This document shows positions 27,497-47,793 of a DNA stretch of 64,000 nt, piece by piece. Under the pieces are notes generated by a model that searched no databases, was not told where the DNA came from, and saw nothing but the letters and a program-made list of their open reading frames with translations. Made by a program: the position numbers and the translations under genes. How positions within the stretch are numbered: the first letter of the stretch is position 1; each line of letters starts with the position of its first letter. This DNA comes from Zymoseptoria tritici IPO323. Taxonomy: Eukaryota; Ascomycota; Dothideomycetes; Mycosphaerellales; Mycosphaerellaceae. The stretch is from the NCBI RefSeq assembly GCF_000219625.1, contig NC_018216.1:2914001-2978000 (forward strand), in the 5' to 3' direction.

Positions 27497-27505
27497 CCCA
27501 CCTCT
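27497..27505. repeat. left 9-bp target-site duplication of the giant transposon
   Basis: CCCACCTCT immediately precedes the left terminal repeat; the same nine bases follow the right terminal repeat at 47785-47793. Confidence 0.88.
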
Positions 27506-27524
27506 TAGTCTCAGACGCTCAGAC
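27506..27524 (+). repeat. left terminal inverted repeat
   Basis: Nineteen bases beginning TAGTCTCAGACGC pair with the complement of 47766-47784, differing only at position 14 (T versus A). Confidence 0.85.
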
Positions 27525-27545
27525 CACCTCGCGTATCAGGCTAAT

Positions 27546-27561
27546 CAGGTGCAAGCACCTG
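27546..27561. repeat. subterminal perfect hairpin
   Basis: CAGGTGC-AA-GCACCTG is a perfect 7-bp stem with a 2-base loop, 21 bp inside the left terminal repeat. It has escaped CpA/TpG mutation. It may be a transposase-binding or structural end element. Confidence 0.6.
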
Positions 27562-27952
27562 GCCCTACTGTAGGTAGTCTGAGGGCCTAACTAGTGTTTT
27601 TTGGTAATAGAGTGTTAGCTTTATATATAAATTACACTAACATAGAGTGTTAGCACCTAAACGCGTCTATACGACTAACGGCGACGACAGCATTACTAGG
27701 TATAAAATCTGAAAATCCGGCTTAGTTATCTAATACAGATTAACGTGCTCTACAACCTCCTACTATTTGTTTTAACCTAATGCGTTAGACGAACAAAGAG
27801 TAGGCTTTCGCGTATCTTTAGTCTAACCGACGCGTTTATATAGCGAGACGGCAATGCCTACTCCTCCTTTAGTTTTTGTCTAATACTAACTAAAATTTGT
27901 CTATTAGATAGCTAGCTGTCCGCTCCCTAACTTAACTAAAGCCGATTTTAGG

Positions 27953-29050
27953 ATGCCGCGCTATAAATCTCGTCTTTCTAGGTTAAATTCTAACCTAACC
28001 CGATCTTTCGCGACGAGTACCTCGAGCAGCTTTGGCGCTAGCGAGTCCGGACAAGTTAGCAATACGTTAGATAAGGCGACTAATAAGGAGGATCGATCGG
28101 ACGAGTCGTTTTCGCGTATAGAAATTACTACTTTTACTAGCGTACCTAAGCGCATTCGGGTAGTCGACGACGACGACGACGACGACAGTAATAGTCTATC
28201 TAACGTCCTAAGTAACTACGATAATAGCGAGGACCTCTAGGGTAGTCTGCAAAACCCTATAGAACTATTAGCATTAGACATTGCCCTTTAGACGATTTTG
28301 TATAGGGGTAGTATAAAAGTGCATTTTATTCGGCAGGAAGGATAGCTAGAGAAGATAGTGTTAGTACTAACCGAAGAGATTCCGGTCGAAGAAGACGACG
28401 TGTTAGTTAGGCAGCTGCTAGAGCGGGTATTCTAATCGGCGTAGAGGAATGCCTATAATGTAGACGCAGTCGAAGCCGCTTAGGTCGGGGCCCCTAACGA
28501 ATACTATACACCGACGGCCGAACAGACTGCACCTTCACGCGGTGGCCGTCGTAAGTACCTTCCTCGGAAGGGAAACTAAGACAGTCTAGAAGAAACCTCC
28601 TCGAAAACCTCTCGAATCCGCCCGAAATCCTTCTCGAAATCCGCCTCGAAATATAAGCACAGAATAATAGTACGATTCGAACGAATAGCCCTCTACGCTA
28701 CGAACAAGAAGAAGAAGAAGAAGAAAAAGAAGTAGTCTACTCTACCCTATACGCGTACCTCCTCGAAATCCGAATCGAAATCGTATGTCCCTAGAGACGT
28801 CGTCGCCCTCGAAAGGAAGTATATATACACTTTAAAGAGCTAGAACTCGGTAGAATCTATAACTCTGCGATTAACCTGCGTTGTCGTAGATAGAACTGCT
28901 ACTACGATACTACAAAGGCATATTAAGGATAAGAGAAGATAGCGAGTCTAGATAGCTGCTTTAGGCGCCTTTGCCCTCTCTTTCGAATTCGTAGCGTGCG
29001 TACGAAGCGGAAGGATCTACTAAAAATTCTACAAAAAGCTTAGCGCGAAA
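27953..29050 (+). pseudogene. element ORF A: acidic N-terminus, unknown function (RIP-degraded)
   Basis: An ATG at 27953 opens 95 uninterrupted codons (MPRYKSRLSRLNSNLTRSFA at the start, a run of eight Asp near residue 80). After a TAG at 28238-28240, coding-like sequence appears to continue, through a Lys/Glu-encoding GAA/AAG run near 28706-28732 and a segment reading TLKSQNSVESITLRLTCVVV at about 28830. No domain is recognised. The 3' half of this ORF lies inside the left arm of the inverted repeat around the helicase, so an inverted copy of it exists on the other side. The first 95 codons lacking stops inside a heavily mutated block is notable. The end coordinate is approximate. Confidence 0.5.
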
Positions 29051-29286
29051 ATTCTACAGCCTTAGGCTGTAACACTCGTTTAATTTCCTTTGTCTTGCAT
29101 TTGTTTAAAGTCCTATAGCATTGCCTTAGGCACGGGGTTTTCCCCTAAGGTTAAAGAATACCGAAAGAATTTAATTGTAAATAGATCTACCGCTTTGCCT
29201 TTAGGGCAAGGCCGTCCTACATAGTCTTAGACTCCGAAAGGACGTAAATGGAACAAACAAACAAACAAACAAACAAACAAACAAAC
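28511..29286 (+). repeat. left arm of large inverted repeat flanking the helicase
   Basis: The reverse complement of this arm aligns with about 31081-31941. Shared landmarks in order are a CGGCCG...ACGCGGTG start, TACGATTCGAACGAATAG, the GAA-repeat tract, TTCGAATTCGTAGCGTGCGTACG, a palindromic CAGCCTTAGGCTG, and the outermost AAATGGAACAAACAAACAAAC run. Mismatches include many TA versus CA/TG differences, as expected from RIP. The outer limit is approximate. Confidence 0.75.
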
Positions 29287-29321
29287 AATACTATACACCT
29301 TCTATTTCTCTACCTGCTAAT

Positions 29322-31085
29322 ATGCTAGACTAGCTAGTTGCAATAGCGCGCCGCCGCGCGTTCGATAAGGTGTGCCGCTAGATTAACTATACCGTCGAAA
29401 CGCCCGTACTTCTAGACGGACAACAAGCTACAAGTATAGCGGAGTAGGTAGACATAACTAAGCGCGCGGTCCGTCTAATATATCCGTATTATGCCCGAAA
29501 GCTACAAGTCCGTATACTACGGCACCTACTCTTCGAGAAGAAAGACCTAGTCTAGATTGCGGCTACCTCGGCGGGCAAGAGTCTAGCATATTAGTTATAG
29601 GCGCTAATACGGAAGAAGATGTCGATCTTAGTGCTTCTACTTAATTAGATTAGTAAGGAACAGCTTAAGAAGATCGAGTGTCTAAAGGGAAAACCGTTAG
29701 TATTAAACTTAAACACTAAGGCGGAGCTTACCGACTAGTAGTAGAAGCTACTATATTCCGGGAAGTGTACCTACCTAATATTGTCTCCTAAGATAGCGAT
29801 ATAGTCGTAGTTTATAAAACTAATAGTTAAACCGGCGGTAAGGCAAAGGCTCGGCCTCTTTATATTAGACGAGTTCTACCTAGTTTACTAGTAGGGGATA
29901 GAGGGTAGAGGATTTCGGAAAGAATATGCCCGTCTAAAGAATCTTCGGTCTACCCTAACTAATTGTGTTCGCTTCTTTAGTTGTTTAGCGACTCTTAAGC
30001 CGGATACCCTTATAAAGTGTCGGACGGCCTCTAGCTTTTACGACGATACAGTTGTCGTACAGGATTCGATTAACTAATCTAAGATATCTATACGATATTG
30101 CGCTATTCTAGATAGTATGCTCGGGAACTACAAGACGCTTCGATATCTAACCGATCGCCTTACCGGAGCTAATAGCGTACCGAATCCCTAGTCGATTAAG
30201 AAAATAGTAGTGTTTATCGACAGTCGCTCGGGTATCTACACCGCGGCGTCTAGCCTCCGGTCCTACCTACATACCTAATTCTCTAGAAGCCTAACAATTA
30301 ACTAGATCTATACTATAGTAAGAACCTACTACGGTAGGACGGCTAGGCGAACGTAGGCGAATATAATTAAGGAGTTCTAGAAACTAGACTCGAAGATCCG
30401 GATCCTGTTCGCGACTAAGGCTCTTAGTCTAGGCGTCGACCTGCCTAACATTAAACAGGTCGTTTAATACCGCCTTCCGCAGAACGCTAGCATACAGACT
30501 ATTATATAGCGAGCCGGGCGCGCTATACGTAACAGCAAGCGGTAGGGCACCGGAACTTTTACCTTCCTTTACGACTAATAGATCGTAGGCCCCCGGTCGC
30601 CGGCCCGACTAAACTAGACTCGTATAGTCCCGGACAGATTCTTAAACTCGGAGCAGGAGAAAGAGGCTAGTAATCTCGCCGATGCGCTATCTGACGCTAG
30701 ATTAGATGCTAACGAGCCGGCGCCTGTCGGACTGCCGTCGGCGGCACGTAAGAAGCCGAGGGCGAAACTAGGTCCTTAGTAGAAGCGCGATAATATAAAC
30801 TATTCCGTGTAGGAGTTTGTAAACGCTAGACGTAATGTAGATAGTCCGGTCGACTGTCGTCGCGTCGCTGCTTTAAAGCCCTTCGTAGAGCTACTGCCTA
30901 AAGGGCGTATCCGTAAGAACTACTACGATATCTACGACTAGGATATAATATTGCCTACCGACCGCTTTTCCGAATAGATTCTGTCTTCGGCGGACCTAGA
31001 TGCCGCCTATACTAGACGCCCGTATAAGAAGATAATCCGCGAGGGTCTAAATAAATAGGAGCCTAGCATAGCTAAATTGTATTTG
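29322..31085 (+). pseudogene. RecQ-like superfamily 2 helicase (RIP-degraded)
   Basis: A single plus-strand frame can be followed from an ATG at 29322 for about 1.7 kb, broken only by TAG/TAA codons attributable to RIP. Helicase motifs remain readable. There is a Walker A-like IAATSAGKSLAY near 29560. Motif II is LFILDEFYLVY followed by two stops and GIEGRGFRKEYARL, the RecQ-type DE.H...QWG....FR.EY arrangement. Motif III-V lies in RILFATKALSLGVDLPN, and motif VI in RAGRAIRN. The spacing and the motif II extension fit RecQ rather than DEAD-box RNA helicases. Intact versions would unwind DNA 3'-5'. Telomere-linked and transposon-linked RecQ helicases are known in fungi. No HRDC domain is recognised. 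The 3' end is approximate. Confidence 0.78.
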
Positions 31086-31941
31086 TTTGTTTGTTTGTTT
31101 GTTCCATTTACGTCCTTTTGGAGTCTAAGACTATGTAGGACGGCTTTGCCCTAAAGGCAAAGCAGTAGATCTAGTTACAATTAGATTCTTTAGTATTCTT
31201 TGACCTTAGGGGAAACCCCGTGCCTAAGGCAGGACCTATAAGTAGAATCTGCCGAAGGACTTTAAAACAGCGCAAGACAAAGGAAATCAAACGAGTGTTG
31301 CAGCCTAGGGCTGCAGAATTTTCGCGCTAAGCTTTTTGCAGAATTTTTAGCGGATCCTTCCGCTTCGTACGCACGCTACGAATTCGAAAGAGAGAGAGAG
31401 AGGAAATGCATTGCAGTACAGAAAGCAGTGCAGGAGCGACGTAGCTGCTATGCAAGCAGCTACGCAAGCAGCTATCTAACCCGCTGTCTCTTTCTCTTGT
31501 CCTTAATATGCCTTTGTAGAACTGTATGCCGCTTCTAAACGCATACAGCTACGTAGGTTAATCGCAGAGTTATAGATTCTACCGAGTTCTAGCTCTTTAA
31601 AGTGTATATATGCTTCCTTTCGAGGGCAACGACGTCTCTACTAGAGAAGGGACATGCGATTTCGATTCGGATTTCGAGGAGGTGCGCGTATAGGACAGAG
31701 TAGACTGCCTCTTCTTCTTCTTCTTCTTCTTCTTGTTCGTAGCGTAGAGAGCTATTCGTTCGAATCGTGCTATTGTTCTGTAGCTTGTGTTTTCGAGGGG
31801 AGGCGTGCCTCCAGGTTGTGTTGTTGTTGTAAGGGAAGAGGGATCGACGGCCTCTCCAATCCTCCGGAGGAAACTTAGCTCTGCGATAGTATCGCAGGTT
31901 CGTAGCCGGCACCGCGTACAGGTGTTCCTCGTCGCCGGCCG
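31081..31941 (-). repeat. right arm of large inverted repeat flanking the helicase
   Basis: Inverted partner of 28511-29286. It keeps more CA/TG dinucleotides than the left arm: around 31290-31345 it has GTTGCAGCC and TTTTTGCAGAA where the left arm shows the TA versions. It still contains an uninterrupted 107-codon minus-strand frame (31912-31589) corresponding to part of ORF A, including a nine-Glu run. A CA/TG-rich patch at 31410-31480 (repeated AAGCAGCTA/GTAGCTGCT) is absent from the left arm. Confidence 0.75.
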
Positions 31942-31976
31942 CTAAATTGTATTATAAAAAGGCACTGTTCCCTAGT

Positions 31977-34900
31977 ATGCCTAGTTCTCTTCTGCCTTAG
32001 ACGGTAATCGCGCATCTTGCTTCTATATTTGGCTCGCCTAGTACGAAGGGAGACGTAATAGCTCGCTAGGTCGAGCTAGCCTATTCTGCCGTAGACTTCC
32101 GACCGTCTCCTAAGCTTGTAACTATACTAGTTTTAAAGCTGTCGGTATTACTTAAGCTAGCGTAATTAGTCGAGGCCTAGGAATTGTAGGAGAGTTAAGA
32201 ACGCGTCGGGGCGCATCGTATTCGTACGTAGAAGCGCTATCTAAGTCTCGAACTCTCTATAAGTCCTAAGCGATCTCCTAGGTCCGCTTCGGACGATATA
32301 AGGGCTGCTAGTAAGCTAGACTATAAGCTTGCTACTTAGTCCGTCTATAGTCCTTACGCCGGTCCGGTACGAGAGCCTAGCCCTCTAGTCGGTAAGCCGC
32401 CTACGCCTATCCCTAAAAGGCTAAAGGTTATATAGGCGCAATCTAGTAGAGCCGTCCTCCCTCCTAATCGCGCGCCTAGCTCTTCCGTCCGCCGTCCTAC
32501 CCCGCCGCCTAGAGCGTATTCTAGAGTTTCTACCAGCTATCTAAAGGCTACGCCTAAAGCATCCGACAATAGAGTTCGTTCGGACGGCCGTCGTTTCGGC
32601 ACTATGTTAAATCCGAACTAGATTTGGCTAGCTAGACGTCGGTTAGCTTCTCTAGTGCCGGCTATAGTATCGCCCGAACCGATAATCGTAATAACGTTGC
32701 GCGGTCGGACGCGGGTAGCGAACGCAGTGCCCTAAAAGCATCGGTTTAGTTAGTAGGGTTAAGGTGTCGATAGTATCTATAAAGAGGTCGACTAGTTGAA
32801 GATGTAGACTGTTTTGCTAAGGATTTCAGATTTTAGCGTATTATAATAATAGCCCTACTCGAGCCCTTAACATCGCCTCGTTATCTCTCTCTACTAGTAT
32901 ATTGTCCTTGTATATATGTCTACAGTTATAGAAGCCTCGACTCTAGCCGCCTAAAGGGGGCGTCCGTAGCGTAAACGTAAATTACCTAAGCCGGCGCCTC
33001 TAGTTCGAACGCCCTCCTAGTCGACGTCGAATGCTAGCGGGTCTAGATCGAGCAAGAGTTAGGATGCTAGTATCCGGAGACCGAGAAATCGTTACGGCGA
33101 AGGCAAGACGAAGAGAGAGAAGGTAGACCTCCTACTAGCCTAAATAAAGGAGTTAGGGATAACATTCGGGACCTTTATAGAGCTATATATCTTATATAAG
33201 AAGGGCGCCTCGTCGTCTAATTAGGCAGAGACGGCAGCTACTAGGACTAAGAGGTTAGCTAGTCTGTTGTAGAAAGATTAGATATATATAAGAGTATCTA
33301 AGCATATGCCTCCCGGTAAGTAGATAAATACGGAAGCAGTATATAACGAACTAAAGATGTTGCGGGGGCGCTAGGTAAGGAGGTCCGGTATATATACAGA
33401 TACATGCTTACGTTTTTAGGAGTTTAGGTAGTAGGACTAAAAGATGCCCGCGGAAGATCTAGATTATAAGAGTATAGTTTAGTCGATAGGAGAGTGCGTA
33501 CTGTTAATATAGGCACTCTTTAAGGGGATATTAGGTCTGCTACGGAAGGCTGTCCTAGCTAATTATATGCTTAGGCGCGTAGGTCTAGTTGCTAGCTTAC
33601 TCGGACGGACATAGCATCCGCGATACTATAGTTAGTTCCCGAACTAGCTAGGATTATATCTCTAGAGCTAGGGCGTAAAGCGGCGGGTAATCGTAGTGCT
33701 GTCCGGAATAGGTGTCTACGCGTTACCAAAAAGCATATACCGCTATAATCGACAACTGTACTCCCTAGCGAAGGACTGTATTACCGGCTTTAGACGAGAT
33801 TGCTATATATATAGTATCCACGATAACCTAGACATCTACTGCAAAACCGGGGAGTATAGGCATAACTGTAAGGATAAACTAAAGCATATTACGATTAGCA
33901 TAGTGCTTAAAAGCATCGAGGTGCTGCAGACTAGTCTAAAGTAGGAGTATTTTCGTAAGGACAAGCCTCTTTAGCTCGTAGACGTACTCGAAGGAGACGG
34001 CAATTAATACGACGCTGTCTAGAAACAAATCTTACGCAGCCTTATTGCCTCGGCTATCGTTAGATTGTATCCTAACGTAGTCGCGTATTATTTAGGTATC
34101 GATACTACTGCCGATAACGATCCTCCGCGTCGCGGTAATCGAACAGGAGTGTCTAGTACTAACCCGGGTACTAGTAGGGAGACCGCTATATATAATAAGC
34201 ATAGAAAGAGTAAGATCGACTAGGATAATATTACTAGCTTCCCTACATTTCCTACAATTAACCGGCTAGAGAAGCAGAAAAGCGTAACGTATATACTAAA
34301 TCTTATATTCGAATACGAAGGTACGACTAAAGGCATATATGCCGTAATCGAGCATATTCTCGAGCGCTAACTCGGATATAGAGACATATATAACGAGTTC
34401 TTACGGTACTAAGACGCACAATCCTCGAGGGCTAGAGGGGATACTATTTATAACTACTAAGGCGCTACTAGCAGCTAGCAAATCTACTACCGGAATCCTT
34501 ATCCTGCCGCTAATAGCGACGCTATCTAAGATACGGAAGGTCGTCCTATTAAACACTCCTAGCAACCCTATTAGTTATACCTAGCGACCTAGTCTACTAT
34601 TTAACTATCCTAACAGTAGTATCCGGCAACCTAGTCTACTTTCTAGCTATCCTAATAGTAGTATCCGGCAACCTAGTCTACTTTCTAGCTATCTTAACAG
34701 TAGTATCCGGCAACCTAGTCTACTTTCTAGCTATCCTAATAGTAGTATCTAGCGACCTAGTCGACTTTCTAGCTATCCTAGTAGTAATATCCGGCAACCT
34801 AGTTTACTTTTTAGCTATCCTAGAGCACGCCTATAACCTCCTAACTACTATATCCGGCGATATAGTCGACTTCTACGTCCGCCTAGAGTACCCCTACGAC

Positions 34901-36689
34901 TTCCTAACAGCTATCCGCGGCAACGAGTAGTAGTTTTCTATACGGCAGACGCGATTTGTTAGCCCTACGTAGTTATAGTACACCTAGCGGACCCCCGAGG
35001 GCGCTTAGATAGTCGCCGGGTACAGTACTATACATTCTACGAACGCGGTCGCTAAGAGAGAAGCTAGAATACTATATATACGATCGGACGAATGTTATCT
35101 TCCTAATGTATAGCGACTAGTTGTTAGTAAAGAACATCCGGACATGCCTTAAGGAGGCTCGAGAGAACGACGACGCATTCGACAAGATGCAATAGGTACT
35201 ACTATTGCTAGGTTTGTTCTACCTAAAGATATACCTTATTTAGGTAATCGAGAATAACTTTAATAGGCGGGAAGGCTGCGCTGCCAAATCTTTATTAATA
35301 GTCTATTAAGGACTAATAGAAAGGAAGATATGCCCCTTATTCTATGCACCCTATAGCTACCTAGAGCGTCTAACCTTAGATAGTTTTAATGCTAGAATAC
35401 TCGCATTTGTATACGAAGAGCTTAAGCTAGTCGTGTGTAGTCGGATAGCGATATCGACCTACATTCGCGCACTTACTCGCTAAGGGTTTACTAGTCTAAT
35501 AGATAAGGTCTACGAGAAGGCCTTCTCGCACAAGGCCCGCTTGTTAGATACGGACTACCTAGAGGGAGACACTATTAAGGCAAAGAACTCGTATTTATTA
35601 AAGAGGCATTAGTCGAAGAAGGCTAGTGCGACTAACAAGGCTGCCGCTATAGCCGACGGCAACGAAGAGCGCAGGAATTACATCCGATTCCTTTATGTCG
35701 TCGAGACGTATTAGATACTGTCGCGAGCCGTAAAGTATGCGGATATCGGACTACTCCGCCGGGTAATTAACTAATACATCTTAATCTTCTACGCTAGATT
35801 ACACAAGAATTACGCATTTATTATACTATAGATAAAGTAGTTAACGGACACCGAGACGTCTTATCTGATACTGCAGCGGGCTATACTAGCTAACGGACTG
35901 GTAAATATAGCCGGTGCGGACGATAGTTAGTTCGAGATCGACAGGGCGAATAAGTTTCTTAACCGGTATCTAAAGACATTAATAGCTAGCCGGCGCAACG
36001 GCACGTTCGACGTCGAGAACTAACTAGAAGAAGCCGCGCTTTTAGCGACCTATACTAGCTACCTACGAGAGGTTATCGAGGCTAGGTTCGGGGAGGTAAC
36101 GAATACTAAGCATACCTTACTAAAGTTAGTCGAGGAGATATATGCAGTCGTAACGATTTGTTACTAGGAAACACTGCCGACGAAGGCAGTCGATCTAGAT
36201 GCGAATATAGTCCTCCCTTTTTACGCTATAGACTTATATGCTATAGGTGTTAAGAACCTAGTAACTAACGTAAAGGGTAGCAGTCGACTAGAGAGGTTTA
36301 ATAAGAATGTAGTTGTAAAGGACTGTTAGATTGTACAGGTAGACTAAGATCTAATCCTAGTAAATATAGAACTACCGGACCTAATAACGGATCCTTACCT
36401 CCGCCGCATAGCAGCGATAGACATTACTCCTGGACTAATAAGGACGCCTTAGGATCCTAATAGCGAAGACGAGGCAGGTAATGTTTACTTCGATAGCGAC
36501 TAACCTTACTTGCTAATAGCTATACTATTACCTACCTCGCATATGTATACGTTAGACGCCCTTAACATTATATTTAGGCACTTACTAACCGCCCTTTTAG
36601 GCATTAGCACGACTAATTTACGTATAGACGCCCTTTACGAGACGCAGATTAGTTATACACCTATATACGTACTACGTCGACGACGTTAA
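31977..36689 (+). pseudogene. DUF6589-like large protein with Gln-rich tandem repeat (RIP-degraded)
   Basis: An ATG at 31977, 18 bp after a TATA-like TATTATAAAAAGG, starts one frame that remains coherent for about 1,570 codons despite many TAG/TAA. The N-terminal third is Ser/Pro/Arg-rich. The central part resembles fungal DUF6589 proteins: SGIGVYALPKSIYRYNRQLY, then IHDNLDIYCKTGEYRHNCKD, and after the repeat a segment reading YSD, stop, LLVKNIRTCLKEARENDDAF and LGLFYLKIYLI. These match the family's pattern of a YDN.D block and a GDQLTV...D..F..L...GLFHL block. Between them lies a 42-bp repeat at 34587-34830. DUF6589 has no proven function; its presence in a TIR element makes it a candidate transposase or accessory. 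The 3' end is approximate. Confidence 0.68.
34587..34830 (+). repeat. 42-bp coding minisatellite (Gln-rich)
   Basis: Five to six copies of a 42-bp unit containing CCTAGTCTACTTTCTAGCTA and AGTAGTATCCGGCAA. In the frame of the surrounding gene the stops fall where Gln codons would have been, leaving a 14-residue unit with ST-F, LS and YPAT. Confidence 0.8.
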
Positions 36690-36884
36690 TTGTACAGCTC
36701 GTAGAGGCAGCAAGACGCCTACTTCTACCCGACTTTAGTTACTAAACTTCCTTCCTTCTTTATTAACCTTCTTATACTATCCGATTGCCCTTCTATCCCT
36801 CTATTAACTATTACTTTATCTATCCTTTACTACACTACTCGTTATACTACTTATCTATCCTTACTAACTACCTTACGCTTTTGA

Positions 36885-38309
36885 TAGACGGAGAATCTCG
36901 TTGGTAGACTATATTTAAGCGTAAGTTTCGCTACGCCTATAAAGACAGAGATTTACTAATACGTAAATAGTTTTACTATAGCACCTAGCGTGTAGAAGAA
37001 GCTAGCCGACTAGGGCATCTCGGCGGAGGGTTAAGATATATACGATATATACGCTAAGTAGTTTTAGACAGAATAGTACAGCTAGGCAAAAGTTACGCTC
37101 TATAAGGGCAATATCGTTAAGTTCGTTTAAGGGCTTTACCGCGTAGTATGTTAGAAATCCGGCTCGGTAATTAGGGACGTAAACAAGCGCGTAGGGCGTT
37201 AAGGGCGCATACATTCTAGTATTATAGAACTAGTAGACGATTCCCGAACCGGTCTATACGCGCTCGTATCTAGTAAGGAGATTCTAAGGCGCTTCGGCAA
37301 TTAGATACGTACCTTCGTACCTAGCACCTCTGCTACGAAGCTAGTAGCTATTCTAGCTACTTTCTAGATAGGCGGTGCTATTATGTCAGCTACTAAGACT
37401 TGCACGAAGTGCGGCCTAGCTAACGATCCGAATAGATTCGCAAACGACTATATCGTCTAGCTACATCCTATATAGGAGAGGGCTAGGGATAGAGAGTTCC
37501 TCTTCTTAGGTGCCTATACTAACTACCTACTTTATAGCAATTATAATAAGTGTAGTCTAGCTACGAATAGTCTAGCTACGAAGTATACGAAGGAAGCGAC
37601 GCTAGACTATAAGGAGAGTAAGGAGGACGAAGAGACGGAGCGTCTTCCTAGCTTAGGAGACGCTTAAATAAAGATCTCCGATATGTTACTCTTTATAAGT
37701 ATAGAGAATGTCCCCGAGGTTGTAACGCACTATAGTAGCGGACGCGTCTTAGGCAAACATAAGAAGTATAGGTGTATTATAGTCCCGTTTAGATACGACG
37801 CTCGATTCGACGCGGAAGAGTATACCGACTGCCTAAAAACCGCCCTAAAGGAAGCGTAGGGAGAGGTTAACAAAGTAATTAACTAAGACTACTCCCGTCG
37901 CGACCTTCTAGATCTAGATAGTCCTCTAGTAACGATAGCGCCGCCTTCTATCTAGCTAAAGACGCCTATATATAATAGGCGTATAAGCACTTGTTCGATA
38001 GGCGCTCTATAATTAGACGTAGAGATAGCGGATGCGCCTAAGGTTACAGGTCGTAGGACAACTCGCCGCATAAGTAATAAAGTGCGCGAGGACAAGGCGC
38101 GGTTAGCGGACGAGATTAGGGAGGAGCGGGAGGAGGCTGCCCGCAAGGAGGCTAGAATAAGGTCCTCTCGGAAGGAGAGGCCGGCGAAGAAGCAGACGCC
38201 TAAGGATACGCCTACGAAGTCCCGGCATAACGATCCGCATACTCTAATAGCTAACTCTACTAAGCGAAGCGGGAAGAAGTTATTTACCCTATTCGGATTC
38301 GACGTCTAG
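36885..38309 (+). pseudogene. element ORF C: Cys-containing protein with charged tail (RIP-degraded)
   Basis: One frame runs from just after a TGA near 36881 to a stop at 38307-38309. Coherent stretches include YNRRISTCSIGAL and IIVPFRYDARFDAEEY. A possible zinc-binding region begins with KTCTKCGLANDPNRFANDY at about 37400 and includes a later NKCSLA. The last 75 codons (38082-38309) are intact and extremely charged: EEREEAARKEARIRSSRKER, then a KKLFTLFGFDV terminus. A nucleic-acid-binding role is plausible from the Cys residues and basic tail, but no family is recognised. The start is unclear; a 170-bp AT- and pyrimidine-rich spacer separates it from the preceding gene. Confidence 0.5.
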
Positions 38310-38636
38310 TAGGATAGCCCTTCCGGCGGAAGATACGTCTTAGAGGGCGGCGAACTAACCGGCACGTTCTTCTCGCCTAGATAGGTTAACCTAAGCCCGG
38401 GACGTAAGCGAAACGAGGGTTCGATCGACTTAGATAGACACGTCGTCCGAAGCATCTTTTCGTACTAGGACTAGAGTTATAGTAGCCGGGTTCCTCCTAG
38501 TAGTAGGCTAAAGAAGTTAGATAGGCGTAGAGGCAAATAATTTAGAGGTAGCGAGCGCGAGCGTTAACTGCATTTAACTAATTTTATAAGCATGTTTGTA
38601 GCACTTAGGTAAGATGCGATACGAGCATTCTTTATA

Positions 38637-38780
38637 GCTTACCTGTCTCTAGGATAGCCCTACAGGTGTTAGCTTTAGTGTTTATTTCGCGAGTCCCTTT
38701 TAATAGTAAAGTGCATAGAACCTTTAGCACTACTATTAGTTGCTTACCTGTCGTTAGGATAGCCCTATAGGCGATAGCTC
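38637..38780. repeat. duplicated stem-loop motif
   Basis: A segment of about 37 bp starting GCTTACCTGTC and containing AGGATAGCCCTA appears twice (about 38637-38674 and 38742-38780), and the first copy folds as CCTGT...ACAGG. It may be a 3' processing or regulatory repeat downstream of ORF C. Confidence 0.5.
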
Positions 38781-39194
38781 GAGCGTTTAGTTAAGTGGAT
38801 TTTAATTAAACCCTAAAAGCCTGCTTATGTCTACTAGTTTCTTATTAAAAGTATTATATACCGTAATATAACCTAAGCTAGGCTACGACGACAACTTAGA
38901 TATATTAACCTTCGCCTAATAGCCGATAGTAAGGGGGACGGGCCTAATACAAAGAACCGGACTAAGGAGTCTAACATAGCCTTTAGCCTCGGCGTAGTAG
39001 AGCGCCCGGCTACCTGTATAGCCCGTATAGCAATGTAGTAATAGCAGAACCGACACAATACTAGCTAGACAGTCCTCGGCCGGCAAAACTTATTAATAAC
39101 CTCGCTAGGTTACTTAAGAAGTAGAGCATCTAGATAGGCGCACGTTATCCGACGTAAGACTATTACCTAGAGCCTCTAACAACGCAGACTTAGT

Positions 39195-39325
39195 AGTAGA
39201 ACGACAAGTAGTAGAACGATAAGTAGCTAAACGGCAAGCAGCTAAACGGCAAGTAGCTAAACGGCAAGCAGCTGAACGGCAAGCAGCTGAACGGCAAGCA
39301 GCTGAACGGCAAGCAGCTAAAGCAG
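39195..39325 (+). repeat. 15-bp coding minisatellite
   Basis: About eight copies of a 15-bp unit of the form AGCTGAACGGCAAGC, encoding a heptad-poor Ala/Glu/Arg/Gln helix. It ends 24 bp before the chromovirus insertion point. Confidence 0.85.
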
Positions 39326-39349
39326 CATCGCCTAGAGCCCTAGGCTACA

Positions 39350-39727
39350 TGTTAGGATTGCCTCGTAATAAGGCAGGGAAAGACTGAAGTAGGGAAGTAT
39401 CGAACAATAGGTTTCAGAATGTAACGACTCGATTCGTTAAAGGAGGGAATAGAGGAGGAGAGCCTCCTTCGCTATATACATAGCTACTACTAGGTTCCAT
39501 TCCCCTATCCTTTACTTCTCTCGTTATAAGCGGGATCGTCTGTCCCTTCGTAGCCCTTCGATCCTTATCGTTAGGCATTAAGAGGCAAGCTAGATCGGAC
39601 TGCCTTAATCCGTACGCTGTTGCGCTCTTCGTAACTAGGATAGCTCGTTGTTACGTTCTTCGAAACTAGGTTAGCCCAGCTTAGGGGAGATAAGGCTAGA
39701 CTGCGCTTACGTAAGGGGATCCTTACA
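39350..39727 (-). repeat. 3' LTR of the chromovirus (left copy)
   Basis: 378 bp from TGTTAGGATTG to GGGGATCCTTACA. The internal polypurine tract follows directly at 39728-39747. Confidence 0.92.
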
Positions 39728-40006
39728 TTACCCCCCTCCCCCCGGTGCAACTAACCTTAGTTACGTGCGCGAATCTTTAGCAGCGTTTAGCTACAGGTTT
39801 AATTTACTAACTGCTAACGTTGCTAGGCTAGCTGCTCGGTATCCCGATTAGGAAATAAAAGTAGGTCCCTCGCGCATATACTACTCTTTCTCGCCCTCGA
39901 ATTCTTCTCTTCTTACAAACACCTACTAAAAGTAAGTATTAGCAGCTAGCTCCAGAACGGTCTAGATTAGCGCTAGATTAGCTAACATTGCGACTAGACT
40001 AGCATA

Positions 40007-41000
40007 ATGTCCGGCGCACTCTACTATCTTCGCGACAAGTACTACAAGAAAGTCCGAGCTAGTAGGTAGAACGAGAATCCGTGCTCGTTATGCCTCTCTA
40101 GCGTTAAGGAGGGCTAGGACCTGTCTAAGATCTGCTAGATTGCGGCAGAGAAGCCCCTACCCGGCAATATCCTGGCTAAGTGTTCCGGATGCCTAACTAG
40201 CAAGAATGCGGACTATCTTTAGGTAGGTCGGTTTAGTTAATTCTAGCGTGTTCTGCCGCTAACTGTCCTACTTAGATACCGGTCGACTAGGAGCCCGCCT
40301 AGAAAGCTATTAAGCAGGACATCGACACCGTCTACGGCCGCACTACCTAGTCTAAGGCTAAGAAGGAAGACTTGCTAGATCGTGTTCTGTGTTTTACAGG
40401 CTCTGTAGAGGCGTAAGTGTCCCTTTCTAGCGTATTCTAGACTAGCAGCTAATTAGGATAGTTAAACAGGAAGTTAGATAGCAGTTTCTATAGCGAGGAC
40501 GGTCTCTCCTAGCACCCTAGCACTGCTACCTAGGAGGATACTAGACAGAAGGTGCCTAAGAGGGACCGCTCGGCTAGTGCGATCTTAGCGAAGGCTATAT
40601 ATACTAATCCTAGCTTAATCTAGCCCTTACTAATATTCTTTGTAGCAGTCTAGTAGCACCCCTAGCAAGAAGCGCCGCTTAATAGACGTGCGCGGCCGCA
40701 AGTCGGACTGTAAGCGTGCTAAGGAGGCCGAGGATCGCCTAATCGCGGTTAGCACTGCCTTAGAGGCGTTTAACTGCATTATTATAAGCGACCAGGCTCT
40801 AAAGAAGGGATAGTTGCGCAAGATAGTCTTTCCGACGACCGCTAAGGACTGTAGTAAGGTAGAGGACCCGAACTAGGGCGACTCCGACTTTAATTAAGCT
40901 ATTCTAGACTAGAATAGCGGGCGTAGGTCTTCCGGGACTAGGGGTATAACAGATAACGTCGACATAGCATATTAAGACTATAGCGGGGCCTAGATAGTTG
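40007..41000 (+). pseudogene. additional opposite-strand ORF inside the chromovirus
   Basis: Between the chromodomain end and the left LTR there is about 1.3 kb that gag-pol does not use. On the plus strand, opposite to gag-pol, an ATG at 40007 opens MSGALYYLRDKYYKKVRAS. The same frame holds coherent sequence for about 330 codons, broken by TAG/TAA. It includes Cys pairs in NPCSLCLSS and AKCSGCLTSKNADYL and a charged stretch with KSDCKRAKEAEDRLIAVST. The paired cysteines suggest a zinc-binding module. Antisense accessory ORFs are known in some plant Ty3/Gypsy groups; I cannot name a fungal equivalent. It could instead be captured host sequence. The end is approximate. Confidence 0.5.
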
Positions 41001-41099
41001 TTAAATAGCGCAGGGTTAGTTAACTTAGACTAGATTAGACTAGAATAAAGCCGATTCCGCCCTTCGAATTTTTAAATTTAAGTAATTTTATCTAAGTCC

Positions 41100-44000
41100 C
41101 TTAGAAATCCTCGGGATTTTTCTTACATCTTCCTACGCCTTTTTAGCTCCTTCTGGCCTATCTTGCGGCGGAATGCTCTTATTGCCGCCGGGCTTATGTT
41201 ATATCTAGGCTCCTAGGAGTTCTCGTGCTCCCCGAAGCCCTTCTACTTAATTAGGTAACTAAAGTTGTGTAGGTCGTCCTCTTTTTTATCTAAGATGTCT
41301 TCTACCTCCTATTCGTCCCCGTCCCCTACGTCGTACCGCTTTATTTTGTCCTATTTACGGCTAGAGTAGTCCGGGATAGACTTCTTAAGGAGCGAGACGT
41401 AGAAGGTAGGGTAGATGCTTAGCGAGCTAGGGAGGTCGAGTATATATGTTACGTAGTTAACTATTGCCTTAACCTTATATAGTCCGATGTACTTATAGTC
41501 GAGCTTAGGTAATAGCCGCATAGACTTAATGTTCTTTGTGTTTAGGTAGACTTCGTTACCTACGTTAAAGGAGACGTCCTTCCTATACTTGTTCGCCTAC
41601 TTAGCCATCTGTTTCTTCGTCTTAGCTAGTCTTTCGCGCATCTTCTTCTAGTTAGTAATTATCTGCTCCGCGAGTTAGATAGCCTTTAGCGCCTTGCCAT
41701 CTTTCTAGCGCATTCTAGGCTAGTAGGACCTTCGTAGGTCCCTCGTTGTGTATGCTTAGAACGGCGTTAGCCCGGTTGCCGTATGCATACTATTATTATA
41801 GGCGAATTCCGCCGTCGACAGCAGAGAGGCCTAGTTGTCCTGCTTATAGTTGTAGTACGTCCGTAAATACTGCTCTAGTGTCTAGTTCTGCCTTTCCGTC
41901 TAACTATCCGTCTACGGATAGAATGCCGTACTTAGCTTCCGGTGTACCCCGAGGCAGTAGTAGAAGGTGCTCTAGAATTTAGAGGTAAGGATTGGCCCGC
42001 GGTCGGACGTAATTATAGCCGGCTGGCTATAGAGGCGGACAACCTCTCTTATTATAAGTTTAGCGAGGTCAGCTAACGTAATCGTTTTCCGGCATAGTAC
42101 GTAATAGACTATCTTAGTGTAGCGGTCTACTACTACTAGTATACAGTCGTAAGACTAGCTTAGGAACTTGCTCGGCGGGAGGTTAGTAATAAAATCCAGC
42201 GTAATGTCGGCCTAGGGAGTTAGCAAGGGGGGTTCGGGGTGCAGTAGGCTGTGCGGTTTGTACCTTCGTAGCTTCGCTCTTTCGTACGCCTAGCAGGTCC
42301 TTACGAACTCCTTAACATACTTCCGCATCCTGGGCTAGTAGAAACTACGCTAAAGCAACTTTAGGGTCCTTGTAAAGCCGAAATGTCCGGAGAGGGGGTC
42401 GTCGTAGTATTCCTAGAGTAGCTAGAGCCTTATAGCGCCTTCTAGTACGTATGCCTTGCTATTTATGTACGCAACGCCCTCTTCTAGGGACTACCTCTCC
42501 GCCTAGAAGGCAGGCTCGGCGATAGCCTTCTCCTAGACTATCCTCTTATAGGTAGGGTCCTTACTAAGGGCTTTCTTAAGCCGCTCTAGAAGGTTCGGGG
42601 TCCTTACCGCTGCCCTAACGTACCGGACTAGGCTATCCTGCCCTGTCGGCAGTGCAAATACCTTTCGGAAGAGGCGGACGCTAGCGTCTGCTTCCTCCTC
42701 GGTAGCCTATTAGCCCGAATGCGACTCCTTAGTAAGGTCTAGTCTCCTACTAAGTGCGTCGGCAGCGCTATTCGCCTTACCCGGCCTATACGTAGTCCTA
42801 AAATCGATCTGCGACAGCTATTTAGCCTATCTAACTTGCCTCCTCGAGAGGGTCTTCGTCGTTATAAGGGTCTAAAGGTTCGCATAGTCGGTTAGCAACT
42901 CTACTTAGTAGCGGGCGCCCTCGAGGTAGTGCCTAAAGTGTTTAAAGGAGTCTACTATAGCGAGGAGCTCGCTATCTTCTGTTCCGTAGTTCCTTTCTGC
43001 CGTAATTATCTTCCTTAAGAAGTAGGCGACCGGGAACTACTACAGTTTGCCCCCCTCGTTATAAGGCTAGGAAAGGATGCCCGATATTGCTTCCCCCGAT
43101 GCGTCGGTCTCTACCTAACAAGGGAGCTCTAGGTTATAGTAGCGCAGAACGGGCTCTTCTGCGAACTTACGGCGTAGCTTATAGAAGGACTAGATCGCCC
43201 TGTCGTCTAATTCGAGATAAGCACGCTCTCTTCGGCGCTAGTTCGCCGCCTTCTTGCCTTTAGTGTAGCGGTTTAGGGCGGCTGCTAGCTGCGAGAAGCC
43301 CTTAATAAAGCGTCGGTAGTAGTTAGTAAAACTAATAAAGACCCTTATGTCGTAGATAGACGTAGGGACTAGCTACTCCTAGACTAATTTAATGCGTTCT
43401 AGGTCGATCCGCAGCCTATCCTAGGTAACTACGTAGCCTAGGTATTCGACCTAGCTTTTGTAGAACTTGCATTTAGCTAGGTTAGCGTATAGTTTGTGCC
43501 GTCGCAGCCGTTCTAAGACCTGCCGGACGTAATCCTCGTGCTCTTTAAGCGTTCTAGAGTAAATCAGGATGTCGTTAAGGTATACAACGCAGAAGACATT
43601 AACTAGTCCTACTAGGACGCTATTAATAAAGTTCTGGAACACTACTAGGGCATTATAAAGCCCGAATAGTATTACCGTATATTTAAAATGGCCGTACCTG
43701 GTCCGGAATGCCGTCTTCCACTCGTCGCCTTCCCTAATACGCACCCGATAGTACGTATAGCGTAGGTCGACCTTGGTAAAGTACCTAGCACCGGCTAGCT
43801 AGTCGAGGGACTCGCTAATAAGAGGTAGACCCCCCCTGTTCTTAACTGTTACCGCGTTTAGACTGCGGTAGTTAATATATAGGCGGAGGGTACTATCCTT
43901 CTTCCGTGCGAAGAGGACTAGAGCGCTAGCCGACGACGTCGACCGCTTAATAAACCCGTTCTTCAGGTGTTTAGGTAGCTAGGTCCGTATAGCCTCTATC

Positions 44001-44720
44001 TCTACCTCGGATAGGGCGTACATCGGACTAAAGGGGACCTTTCCTCCTTCTACTAGCTCGATCTTTAGATTATGTGGACCGTAGGGAGCTAACTCGCCTG
44101 CGAGTTCCTCCGAGAAGACATCCGCGAAGTTAGAGTAGGCGCTCGGAACGCCCCCCTAACCCGGACTAGCTTCTTCCGACGCGTCCTAGATCGTTATAAC
44201 ATAAAGTGCCGCATTTACTTCGCTAAGGTACTCCCTATAGAACCTCTCTAGCCTAACAACAGCTATCGCCTATCGTTTTCGGGGCTTCGTTCTCTAGTCG
44301 ACCCTTTTTAGGGTGAAATCTACGTTTAGATTGTATTTCTCGAGCTAAGGCATCCCTAAGACGACCTTATAGCTATAGATGCGCCCTACTCTAAAGGTGT
44401 CGATGTATCTGTGTATTCGTCCTAAGTTGTCCCGGGCCTTATATAAGCTCCGCGTTTCGCTAAGGACCTAAAGGCTTTACCCGTTTAGCGTCTTGTACGC
44501 GACCCTAGCGGGCGGCTCCTAGATAACCTAGTCTATGTCCTTTGCTAATAAGGAGTTATAGAAGTTATCCTGCGCGCCGCTGTCGATTAGTCCCGCAACC
44601 GTTCTAGTCCTCCCTAGACTATTTAAGGTTAGCGTAACTTCGATAAGGCGCCTACGCTTATAGCGGCGCCGACCCGGCTCCGCTATCCTGCGCTGCTCCT
44701 TAGTATAGAGAACCTAGCCT
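41100..44720 (-). pseudogene. chromovirus pol (protease-RT-RNase H-integrase-chromodomain)
   Basis: Read on the minus strand, the aspartic protease signature VAGLIDSGAQDNFYNSLLAK lies at about 44525-44600. RT spans about 44100-43440; its best-preserved 97 codons (43744-43451) include FGLYNALVVFQNFINSVL and the catalytic box as VVYLNDILIYS, one Asp changed to Asn by a TpG to TpA-type mutation. RNase H follows with ETDASGEAISGILS near 43100. Integrase shows the zinc-binding GHFGFTRTLKLLRY near 42380 and the core segments ITLDFITNLPPSKF and ITSDRGPILTSKF. A chromodomain (EVEDILDKKEDD, then EPRYNISPAAI) lies at about 41310-41155. Stops throughout show inactivity. Confidence 0.88.
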
Positions 44721-45879
44721 ACTAAGACAGCAGCGTCTACTTAGGGGGCGCCTCTTTTTCCGAGTCCTTCTAGAGGGAAGGGTTAGGGCAATCGCGCTTA
44801 ATATACCCGACCTAGCGGCAACTATAGTAAGTAGCCTTAGCTAGGCCCCTCTAGTCCGATCCGTCCTCCGACTTAGACTTCTTAGGGTCCTAGTCGTCGA
44901 TACTGTTGCTTCTACGTCTCTTTCGGTTGCCCTTACCTCTTCTACGGCCCGGGTTGTCCCTTAACTCCTGCTTCTAACCCTCGATAATCCTATAGGTTTT
45001 GTTAACCCTCTCTTAGGCCTTAATAAGCGTAGTAGCCGGAGCCGGGTAATTAGAGAGGCGGGAGCGGTAGTTCTATAGCAAGGAGGCCTTAAAGTTAAGG
45101 ATCTTGCGCCCCTCGTTCTCTTCTTCTAACTCCTTCTAAAGGATCTTTAGCTCTTCGAGGAGCTAGTCGGGGGTGCGGTCTCCGAGGGAGGCCTTCCGCA
45201 ATTGTTCGTAGGCCTTCTCGTAGCGTTCCGCCTCTGTCCCTATAGAGTTAAGCATAACTCCCTTTATTATAGTCTAGGTTAGCGTAGTCTAGCCGTCGAG
45301 CTAATCTACGTAGCGCTCCTAGTAGTCTTGCTAGAGCTTGCCTATATAGTCGGCGGCGTAGTCGACCTTTCGGTCCTCCCGGTTAGAGAATCTATAGTGT
45401 CTGCGGAAGTTACGTTCTACCGCGCGGAGCTAGTCTTCGTAATTAGCACGGGTCTTCCCTTCGAATACGGGTAGTTCCTTAGACTTAGGGAGGCTGTCCT
45501 TGTTCTTGTCGAAATAGTCCGTTTCTACGAAGAGTTTAGCAAGTTTCTCCCTCCTTAGGGTAATTAGGCTATATAAGGCTAGTTCGCTCTAGAGTTCCTT
45601 AATCTTTTGCTAGAGTTTGAGGAATTCGTATTCCGCCTAGGCTTCCTAGTTCCGTTTCTTACGGGTTAGTGCGTCCCCTTGAACTAGGTTAGCCTAAGTA
45701 GTCGAGTCGGTGCCTTCCTAGGTCGTTCCGGCATCGTCTACGGTTTCCGCAATAGAGGTAGCGCTTAGCTAGCGGGCGGCGGCGTCCGCGTCGGACTTAG
45801 CGGCTAGTATAGCACCCTGCTAGCGAGCGGAGGTGTCGGAAGGAGATTCCTCGCGTCTGCGAGTGGCCTTAGGTGCTAT
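44720..45879 (-). pseudogene. chromovirus gag with zinc knuckle
   Basis: Minus-strand coding begins at an ATA at 45879-45877 where ATG is expected before APKATRRREESPSD, consistent with RIP of TpG in the start codon. The capsid-like part contains KLFVETDYFDKNKDSLPKS and AVERNFRRHYRFSNRED. Near 44835-44785 a CCHC-type zinc knuckle remains as YYSCR, stop, VGYIKRDCP. This is the usual position of the nucleocapsid domain just ahead of protease. Confidence 0.82.
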
Positions 45880-45927
45880 GTCGATCGGGGGTTCGATACT
45901 GTAGTATATAAGTTTAAACGAATCGCG

Positions 45928-46305
45928 TGTTAGGATTGCCTTATAATAAGGTAGGGAAAGACTAAAGTAGGGAAGTATCGAACAATAGGTTTTAGAATGT
46001 AACGACTCGATTCGTTAAAGGAGGGAATAGAGGAGGAGAGCCTCCTTCGCTATATACATAGCTACTGCTAGGTTCTATTCCCCTATCCTTTACTTCTCTC
46101 GTTATAAGCGGGATCGTCTGTCCCTTCGTAGCCCTTCGATCCTTATCGTTAGGCATTAAGAGGCAAGCTAGATCGGACTGCCTTAATCCGTACGCTGTTG
46201 CGCTCTTCGTAACTAGGATAGCTCGTTGTTGCGTTCTTCGAAACCAGGTTAGCCCAGCTTAGGGGAGATGAGGCCAGACTGCGCTCACGTGAGGGGATCC
46301 TCACA
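45928..46305 (-). repeat. 5' LTR of the chromovirus (right copy)
   Basis: 378 bp from TGTTAGGATTG to GGGGATCCTCACA. This copy keeps CA/TG at several 3' positions where the left copy has TA, for example GATGAGGCCAG versus GATAAGGCTAG. Confidence 0.92.
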
Positions 46306-47725
46306 CTACAATCGATAGGCGGAGCGGCACGCAGCATATAGGTAGTTAGGTAGAGTATTAGCTACGATATTTGCGACCAGTAGACTAATAGCCAAACTGC
46401 ACATTAGTCGGATCGTCTAGCGAGATTATACGATAGCTAACATAGATTAAGGAAATAATCCGACATTACGCACGCGTAACGCCCGCGTAGACCTACACAT
46501 TTACTAGGCAAACAAGACGACGACGCGAAGATAAAACAGACGCGACAGGGCGAAGCATTTATCTCTTAGACATTAATAACGTTTAAATATATCGCATCGA
46601 CATTAACAACGATCGCCTTCTACCGGTCTAGCCTAATTATCCTCTTCCGCATCTACTTATTAATTACTACCTATTTAGGTACGTATCGAGCCTAACTAGT
46701 CGCTCGCAGCTACTAATATCTAAAGATTAGTATATACTAGTAATATAAAGAGACTGTCGAGCGCAATCCTTATAAAGGAACTCTCTAGAGAGTACGCTAG
46801 CGCGTCCGACGCTAGATAGAAGTACTACTATCGAGCACCTTCCTAGACTACGAGTACGACAACGTATACGAGATAGCAGCTCCTCGCCCTAGGGGAATAT
46901 ACGGCAGCCGCGTAGGCGTCGGCGACAGGCGTAGCGCCGTACTAGAAGACGTCCGCAACCGAAACCCGCTATCCTACTATGCTACTATAGCATAGCTAGT
47001 ACGCGAGACTATAAGCAGATACCTCGCGCCTAGGATTCCGCACTACGAACCGAAGCCTACGCATACTAGGAACATTTAGAAGAAGGTAGATACTATTTAG
47101 CTAGGCAGCTTAGTATCGTAGAGGCCGGAGTATAGCGGAAATGCGCTAGACGGCAGTAGAGTTAGGCATAGAGAGAGACGAGAGCCAAGCGTTAGACGTT
47201 AGTTAGTTACTGTACTACCGGCGGCTACTAGGCGTCGAGACCTAACCCCAAGTGCTAATATAAACGTCGTTTTAACCTCTTTAGGTCGCGGGTCTAGTAT
47301 AGCTACCCGCGCTTAGCGGGAGGTAGAGGATAGAGCGGTTAGATAGCAGAAGAGGGAAGCCCTAATAGCACGTATAAACGCATAGGCTTAGTCGAGTACC
47401 CTACGGTATAACTAAGTATAAGTTATATAATAGCTACCTTCGCCGGATAGGTACAGACGACTAGCAGCGCAAAGGCGGGTAGAGGTAGTATTACATAAAG
47501 GGAGGATATAATACATCTAGAGGTCTAGGAGCGGCTAGAGATTCCCTTTTAGGCGACTAAGGTACGGCTATTGCGATTAGGCGTAAACAAATTACATTAG
47601 ATTAATTCTACAAGTTATACGAATCGTTTACGGGTATTAGACAGGCGTTTAGACTAATATACAAGTTTTTAGATTTTAGCTAACCCTCTATTACCTAGTT
47701 CGGCTGTTGCGCTCTTAGACTATAT

Positions 47726-47757
47726 AGGAAGGCGCCCCCGAAGGGGATTAGCGCCGC
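47726..47757. repeat. right subterminal hairpin
   Basis: GGCGC...GCGCC arms enclose a CCCC-GA-AGGGG stem just inside the right terminal repeat, mirroring the hairpin near the left end. Confidence 0.5.
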
Positions 47758-47765
47758 CAAGTATA

Positions 47766-47784
47766 GTCTGTGCGTCTGAGACTA
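47766..47784 (-). repeat. right terminal inverted repeat
   Basis: GTCTGTGCGTCTGAGACTA, the inverted partner of 27506-27524, followed directly by the CCCACCTCT duplication. Confidence 0.85.
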
Positions 47785-47793
47785 CCCACCTCT
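47785..47793. repeat. right 9-bp target-site duplication
   Basis: CCCACCTCT, identical to 27497-27505; the bases just outside differ (C before the left copy, A at the matching place on the right), so the match is exactly nine. Confidence 0.88.

Follow-up and report, generated by a model that had tools for sequence, protein, structure and literature searches.

AcademH (Kojima 2020) is one of the lineages within the Academ DNA transposons. A RecQ helicase in Academ had been published by 2013 and is credited to Kapitonov et al. (PMC3627910), and in fungi, Academ copies reportedly contain PF00270 and recQ_fam (PMC6416283). AcademH target-site duplications (TSDs) are 9 or 10 bp long (PMC10045372), and the elements occur at low copy number in Basidiomycota, Ascomycota and Mucoromycota (PMC10799480), all according to the parts of these papers covered here. 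We analysed a 64,000-nucleotide stretch of the genome of Zymoseptoria tritici IPO323 (NC_018216.1, positions 2,914,001 to 2,978,000; hereafter the window), which holds a 20,279-bp transposon at positions 27506-47784. With a probability of about 82%, we read it as a copy of an Academ/AcademH-type DNA transposon inactivated by repeat-induced point mutation (RIP), filed there by published descriptions. The reading is based on fixed ends with 9-bp duplications, the large number of copies, short derivatives with internal deletions and matching ends, and three genes conserved as a set.

The element is flanked by two copies of CCCACCTCT, and the 19 terminal bases inside its two ends pair in inverted orientation at 18 of 19 positions. 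The borders of the window copy are as follows.

27497..27505, no strand: left TSD CCCACCTCT, letters read directly
27506..27524, plus strand: left terminal inverted repeat (TIR) TAGTCTCAGACGCTCAGAC, identical in 11 of 11 paired family-1 copies
47766..47784, minus strand: right TIR TAGTCTCAGACGCACAGAC in inward reading, exact in 10 of 11 paired copies, with a C-to-T change in one
47785..47793, no strand: right TSD CCCACCTCT, letters read directly

A reading of the window made from its letters alone (the sequence-only reading) had drawn these borders from the inverted pairing and the nine identical flanking bases, and both signals recur across the genome (39,686,251 bases in 21 contigs; the window lies on contig C3, at C3:2914001-2978000). 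The contig number agrees with the 21 chromosomes of PMC4522978, and a gene on contig C18 encodes a protein listed as 100% identical, over 95% of the query, to a Z. tritici ST99CH_1E4 record. A RIP-tolerant TIR pattern matched 24 places, against 1 for a control pattern, and 22 of these make 11 pairs, here called family 1 (elements with the ends of the window copy); the unpaired places are C14:69869 and C15:534742. Each of the 11 pairs is bordered by an identical 9-bp duplication, of a sequence that differs from pair to pair, which excludes a chance origin of the borders. Seven of the copies are 11,574-11,651 bp long, and the other four (14.1, 17.2, 18.6 and 20.3 kb) have extra DNA within.

When up to three mismatches were allowed, the TIR pattern matched 107 places (control, 28); the counts below for a sister family, its short derivatives and a third end type are among the matches listed of these 107. 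The sister family, family 2, has near-identical ends, TAGTCTCAGGCGCTCAGAC and TAGTCTCAGAAGCACAGAC, and comprises 19 pairs, two or three of which carry one additional C-to-T change. Sixteen are 13.4-15.3 kb long, two are 26.5 and 28.4 kb and one is 1,371 bp. The 9-bp duplications are identical in 18 of the 19 pairs and agree at 8 of 9 bases in the remaining one. Two short elements of 421 bp and 123 bp have family-2 ends and perfect 9-bp duplications. Thus 31 of 32 elements (11 + 19 + 2 short) have identical 9 bp, a length within the 9 or 10 bp given for AcademH in the covered part of PMC10045372. All 32 duplications differ from one another, with a weak symmetrical preference for G at position 1 and C at position 9. 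The 11 + 19 paired copies differ from the low copy number reported for AcademH in the part of PMC10799480 covered. For each of the 11 family-1 copies, the two flanks were also joined into an empty site and compared with the sequence gathered in this analysis; these sites matched only their own loci, plus short pieces of the C17 flank.

Several other ends were seen. More right-type ends without a partner are among the matches listed. A third end type, TAGTCTCAGGCGCACAGAC, has no recognised partner and occurs at at least seven places (C1:735702, C1:4903039, C3:2836846, C3:3424741, C5:908221, C5:2688976 and C12:926150); these are perhaps another family or short derivatives. The end at C14:69869 (L027) resembles the family-2 right end, and its 9-bp flank AAAAAATGA, which is of low complexity, reappears 566 bp further on, behind ...GACTA. 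This could be a short element with unequal ends.

The duplications also bear on two other groups of elements. The KDZ/Zisupton group, including Cryptococcus KDZ1-KDZ3, likewise contains TIR elements of large size from fungi, about 9-11 kb long (PMC12810828). In the sections covered, an 8-bp TSD defines the group (PMC12730594), with 8 bp for Zisupton and KDZ1 and 4-8 bp for KDZ2 and KDZ3, against 9 bp here; its TIRs of 139-241 bp are likewise not seen in our elements, and the group carries KDZ and CxC1 domains (PMC12730594, PMC12810828). A six-frame Pfam search (E 0.1) of the copy at C3:1996126, read through its stops, gave no KDZ or CxC match; RIP damage lowers the sensitivity of this search. 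KDZ and Plavaka were set aside on the TSD and on this domain search.

The sequence-only reading had counted at least four long plus-strand open reading frames (ORFs). We found none of 200 or more amino acids inside 27506-47784 with ATG, GTG or TTG starts; the element's own genes are three relics, all on the plus strand and readable only through many TAG and TAA stops, as RIP has introduced C-to-T and G-to-A changes throughout the copies. The RecQ-like helicase and the DUF6589 protein named in that reading are both among them.

27806..28519, plus strand: RecQ-type helicase relic, part 1 (query amino acids 1-238; 6 TAG, 4 TAA)
29283..31100, plus strand: RecQ-type helicase relic, part 2 (query amino acids 231-836; 28 TAG, 4 TAA)
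31932..32612, plus strand: RecQ-type helicase relic, part 3 (query amino acids 824-1050; 7 TAG, 2 TAA)
32943..36662 (approximate ends), plus strand: DUF6589 gene relic, mapped from the C3:1996126 copy
34517..34852, plus strand: 42-bp tandem repeats within the DUF6589 gene, repeat family D1
35088-36113, plus strand: DUF6589 Pfam match, with 8 TAG and 4 TAA within
36963..38342, plus strand: third gene relic, without Pfam match (15 TAG, 6 TAA)

Pfam was searched at E 0.1 with six frames of the C3:1996126 copy, with X at stops. The plus strand matched DEAD (6.3e-6), Helicase_C (1e-11) and DUF6589 (9.4e-36), together with a sub-threshold match to a helicase relative, Cas3-like_C_2 (0.0079); the minus strand gave no match at this threshold. 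The helicase was typed as RecQ through PDB and NCBIfam matches, the NCBIfam score being below the curated cut-off. With this limit, it agrees with the RecQ-type (SF2) helicase reported for Academ in the covered parts of PMC6416283 and PMC3627910.

Gene tallies from the genome searches are lower bounds. In family 1, the helicase, DUF6589 and the third protein were found in 11 of 11 elements. Family 2 has a helicase match in 19 of 19, DUF6589 in 18 of 19 and the third protein in 10 of 19 (weak, 22-28% identity). DUF6589 is therefore present in 29 of the 30 paired elements, and the helicase gene lies upstream of it in both families. This gene order bears on KolobokH, a fungal Kolobok lineage. KolobokH also has a RecQ helicase and is confined to fungi, but its helicase lies downstream of the transposase, as far as the covered part of PMC9587614 describes it. 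Our 9-bp duplications have no fixed sequence, whereas Kolobok duplicates TTAA. The TSDs already contradict KolobokH, and we regard it as very improbable.

The genome contains at least 41 DUF6589 matches, nine of them outside paired elements. All six outside helicase matches lie 5.0-13.0 kb from an outside DUF6589 match in convergent orientation, and no helicase match was seen up to 13 kb away from three of the nine outside DUF6589 matches (C7:708859, C18:474716 and C3:1594739). At C18:114284-122852 (L053-L056), the Pfam part of the DUF6589 gene is stop-free and the helicase match has one TAG. The two are convergent, about 5 kb apart and adjoin RIP-hit DNA; TIRs and a TSD were sought at this locus and not found. 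The 42-bp repeat region of the DUF6589 gene varies slightly in length among copies, and a repetitive stretch is present near the middle of the C18 gene as well.

Helicase-bearing repeats of Z. tritici have been filed before. A 2014 survey (PMC4522978, in the part covered) assigned them to three families of Helitrons, 390,961 bp altogether; two of these families carry a 5' TA and a hairpin close to the 3' end. Our two families span a similar total, 430,813 bp with nested insertions counted, and they share the TA start and the hairpins. However, TIRs and 9-bp TSDs are present here, where a Helitron would show neither, and neither Rep/HUH nor Pif1 was matched in a six-frame Pfam search (E 0.1) of one full copy. 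A Helitron is thus contradicted already by TIRs and TSDs and its likelihood is close to nil. Judged by size and features, Helitron families 98, 765 and 637 of that survey may be these transposons. In its covered part, the survey states that its DNA-transposon families, miniature inverted-repeat elements apart, yielded neither a TIR nor a TSD, and it describes a subtelomeric family of RecQ genes with 13 copies. The main-text parts covered of PMC4522978, PMC7014611, PMC8759822, PMC9970103, PMC12612061 and PMC10652580 describe no such element, which may be present in survey libraries or supplements under another label.

The structure predicted for a DUF6589 relative (pLDDT, the model's confidence score, 83) has a fold like those of DDE transposases, which suggests that the DUF6589 protein is probably the DDE transposase moving the element. 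The best 22 rows of the structure comparison were Hermes, P element, Tn5, RAG and Transib; the listing contains no Academ structure and is uninformative on Academ. Hermes (hAT) and P element transposases were the best-scoring solved structures, with an identity of about 10%. hAT and P elements make 8-bp duplications and carry no helicase. Like these transposases, the model has two Asp residues on strands and a long helical stretch before the helix bearing a Glu; D19, D186 and E440 are its candidate catalytic triad. Two other candidates for the third catalytic position were given up: in the alignment, the E of NYGREM is replaced by Ile in the rows of families 1 and 2 and by Met in P0008 and F3_L004, and E358 is replaced by Lys in F3_L006 and by Leu in P0021. 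A PDB sequence search with DUF6589 gave a best E of 0.98, and the viral contigs scanned with the DUF6589 alignment held no relative. The sequence-only reading had proposed a transposition context for DUF6589, and both its presence in nearly all paired elements and the predicted fold of its relative agree with this.

The element ends contain nested palindromes at about bases 11-80.

27516..27585, no strand: left subterminal nested palindrome, with arms CAGACCACCT / AGGTGGTCTG in the C3:1996126 copy
47710..47774, no strand: right subterminal nested palindrome, fold z -1.40 in the window copy

The outer left arms CAGACCACCT/AGGTGGTCTG are common to both families, and the outer right arms are CAGACTATAC/GTATAGTCT in family 1 and CAGACCCTCT/AGAGGGTCT in family 2; the letters differ while the pairing, compared by eye, is preserved. 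Folding exceeded that of shuffled sequences at the family-2 left end (z -4.46) and in the 123-bp derivative (z -3.08), with outside-flank controls at 0.49 and 0.20. At the window-copy ends it did not go beyond shuffles (z -1.27 left, -1.40 right).

These ends enter into a further explanation, that DUF6589 elements form an unnamed DDE superfamily of their own. Here, DUF6589 would pair with RecQ helicases, in tandem or convergently, together with the third protein and palindromic ends, and the AcademH likeness would be limited to the RecQ helicase and the 9-bp duplications. The group would have been overlooked since RIP and the helicase led to its filing as Helitron, unclassified or host gene. 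It is consistent with this that DUF6589 was not found by name in the literature searched (papers with the string pf20231 left aside), and that the helicase gene and the DUF6589 gene stand separately in tandem here; at six other DUF6589 loci the two are convergent. A third protein and nested-palindrome ends are not known from Academ descriptions. On the other side, TSD length, helicase type and host group fit the AcademH features published in the covered parts of the papers, and we consider a separate superfamily unlikely. The Academ/AcademH assignment takes in the RecQ-type helicase, the TIRs, the 9-bp duplications (9 or 10 bp in AcademH, PMC10045372) and the ascomycete host (PMC10799480), all of them shared with AcademH, and the DDE-type transposase as predicted from the fold of the DUF6589 relative. 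The sequence-only reading knew of no named superfamily with this combination. Since a RecQ helicase and 9-10-bp duplications are already described for Academ/AcademH in the parts covered, that view is not supported. The new point seems to be a probable function for DUF6589, while the element itself seems to belong to the known group Academ.

In an Academ-type transposition, the DUF6589 transposase would bind the TIR, and perhaps the subterminal palindromes too, and would cut or nick both ends. The ends would be joined to target DNA with a 9-bp stagger, and gap filling would then give the 9-bp duplication. The part of the RecQ-type helicase is probably to unwind the ends or to aid repair of the gap or the donor site. 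The element could be cut out or copied out. The copies were then hit by RIP, with C-to-T and G-to-A changes throughout, and three retroelements landed in the window copy.

Compared with the C3:1996126 copy, the reference for insertion mapping, the window copy holds three insertions.

28513..29283, no strand: first 0.8-kb retroposon-like insertion, within the helicase gene, with an (AAAC)n tail and a duplication of at least 13 bp
31084..31940, no strand: second 0.8-kb retroposon-like insertion, an inverted relative of the first, with a 13-bp duplication
39350..46305, minus strand: Gypsy-type long terminal repeat (LTR) retrotransposon, with 378-bp LTRs and the 5-bp duplication CTACA

Both 0.8-kb pieces interrupt the helicase gene, in opposite orientations and with (AAAC)n tails. 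The LTRs of the Gypsy-type element are 96% alike, and its reverse transcriptase, RNase H, integrase and chromodomain matches lie on the minus strand. The window copy is long because this 7.0-kb retrotransposon and the two 0.8-kb retroposons inserted. The length of about 13.3 kb in the sequence-only reading is what remains of 20,279 bp without the LTR element; removal of both 0.8-kb pieces as well leaves an 11.6-kb core.

The TpA/ApT ratio was 1.71-2.70 in the ten 2-kb bins spanning 28-48 kb of the window, 0.92 in the bin straddling the left border and 0.36-0.60 in the remaining bins; the rise over the element is a mark of RIP. Pairwise identity among seven family-1 copies was 93.8-95.2%, and each pair differed by 549-715 transitions and 3-20 transversions; most of the transitions fall in CpA/TpG and CpG context. 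From these sequence differences we infer a recent spread of the copies, with nearly all damage due to RIP. The 1-kb flanks of family-1 copies had TpA/ApT below 1 in 20 of 21 cases and 1.27 in one (the 22nd flank is only 34 bp), so the elements are mostly surrounded by DNA that shows no RIP. The ATG of a His-rich reading frame (MSDSHSHEHTHDDGHSHSHDH...) stands at about 47924, some 130 bp downstream of the right duplication, and the insertion of the window copy may lie in its promoter.

The orphan Pfam family DUF6589 thus gains a probable function as a DDE transposase, and DUF6589 genes are likely markers of helicase-bearing transposons. The genome of this model wheat pathogen gains two families with clear borders and short derivatives, one of about 11.6 kb and one of about 13.7 kb. 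Such bounded copies and derivatives make it possible to test what a TIR transposon requires a RecQ helicase for.
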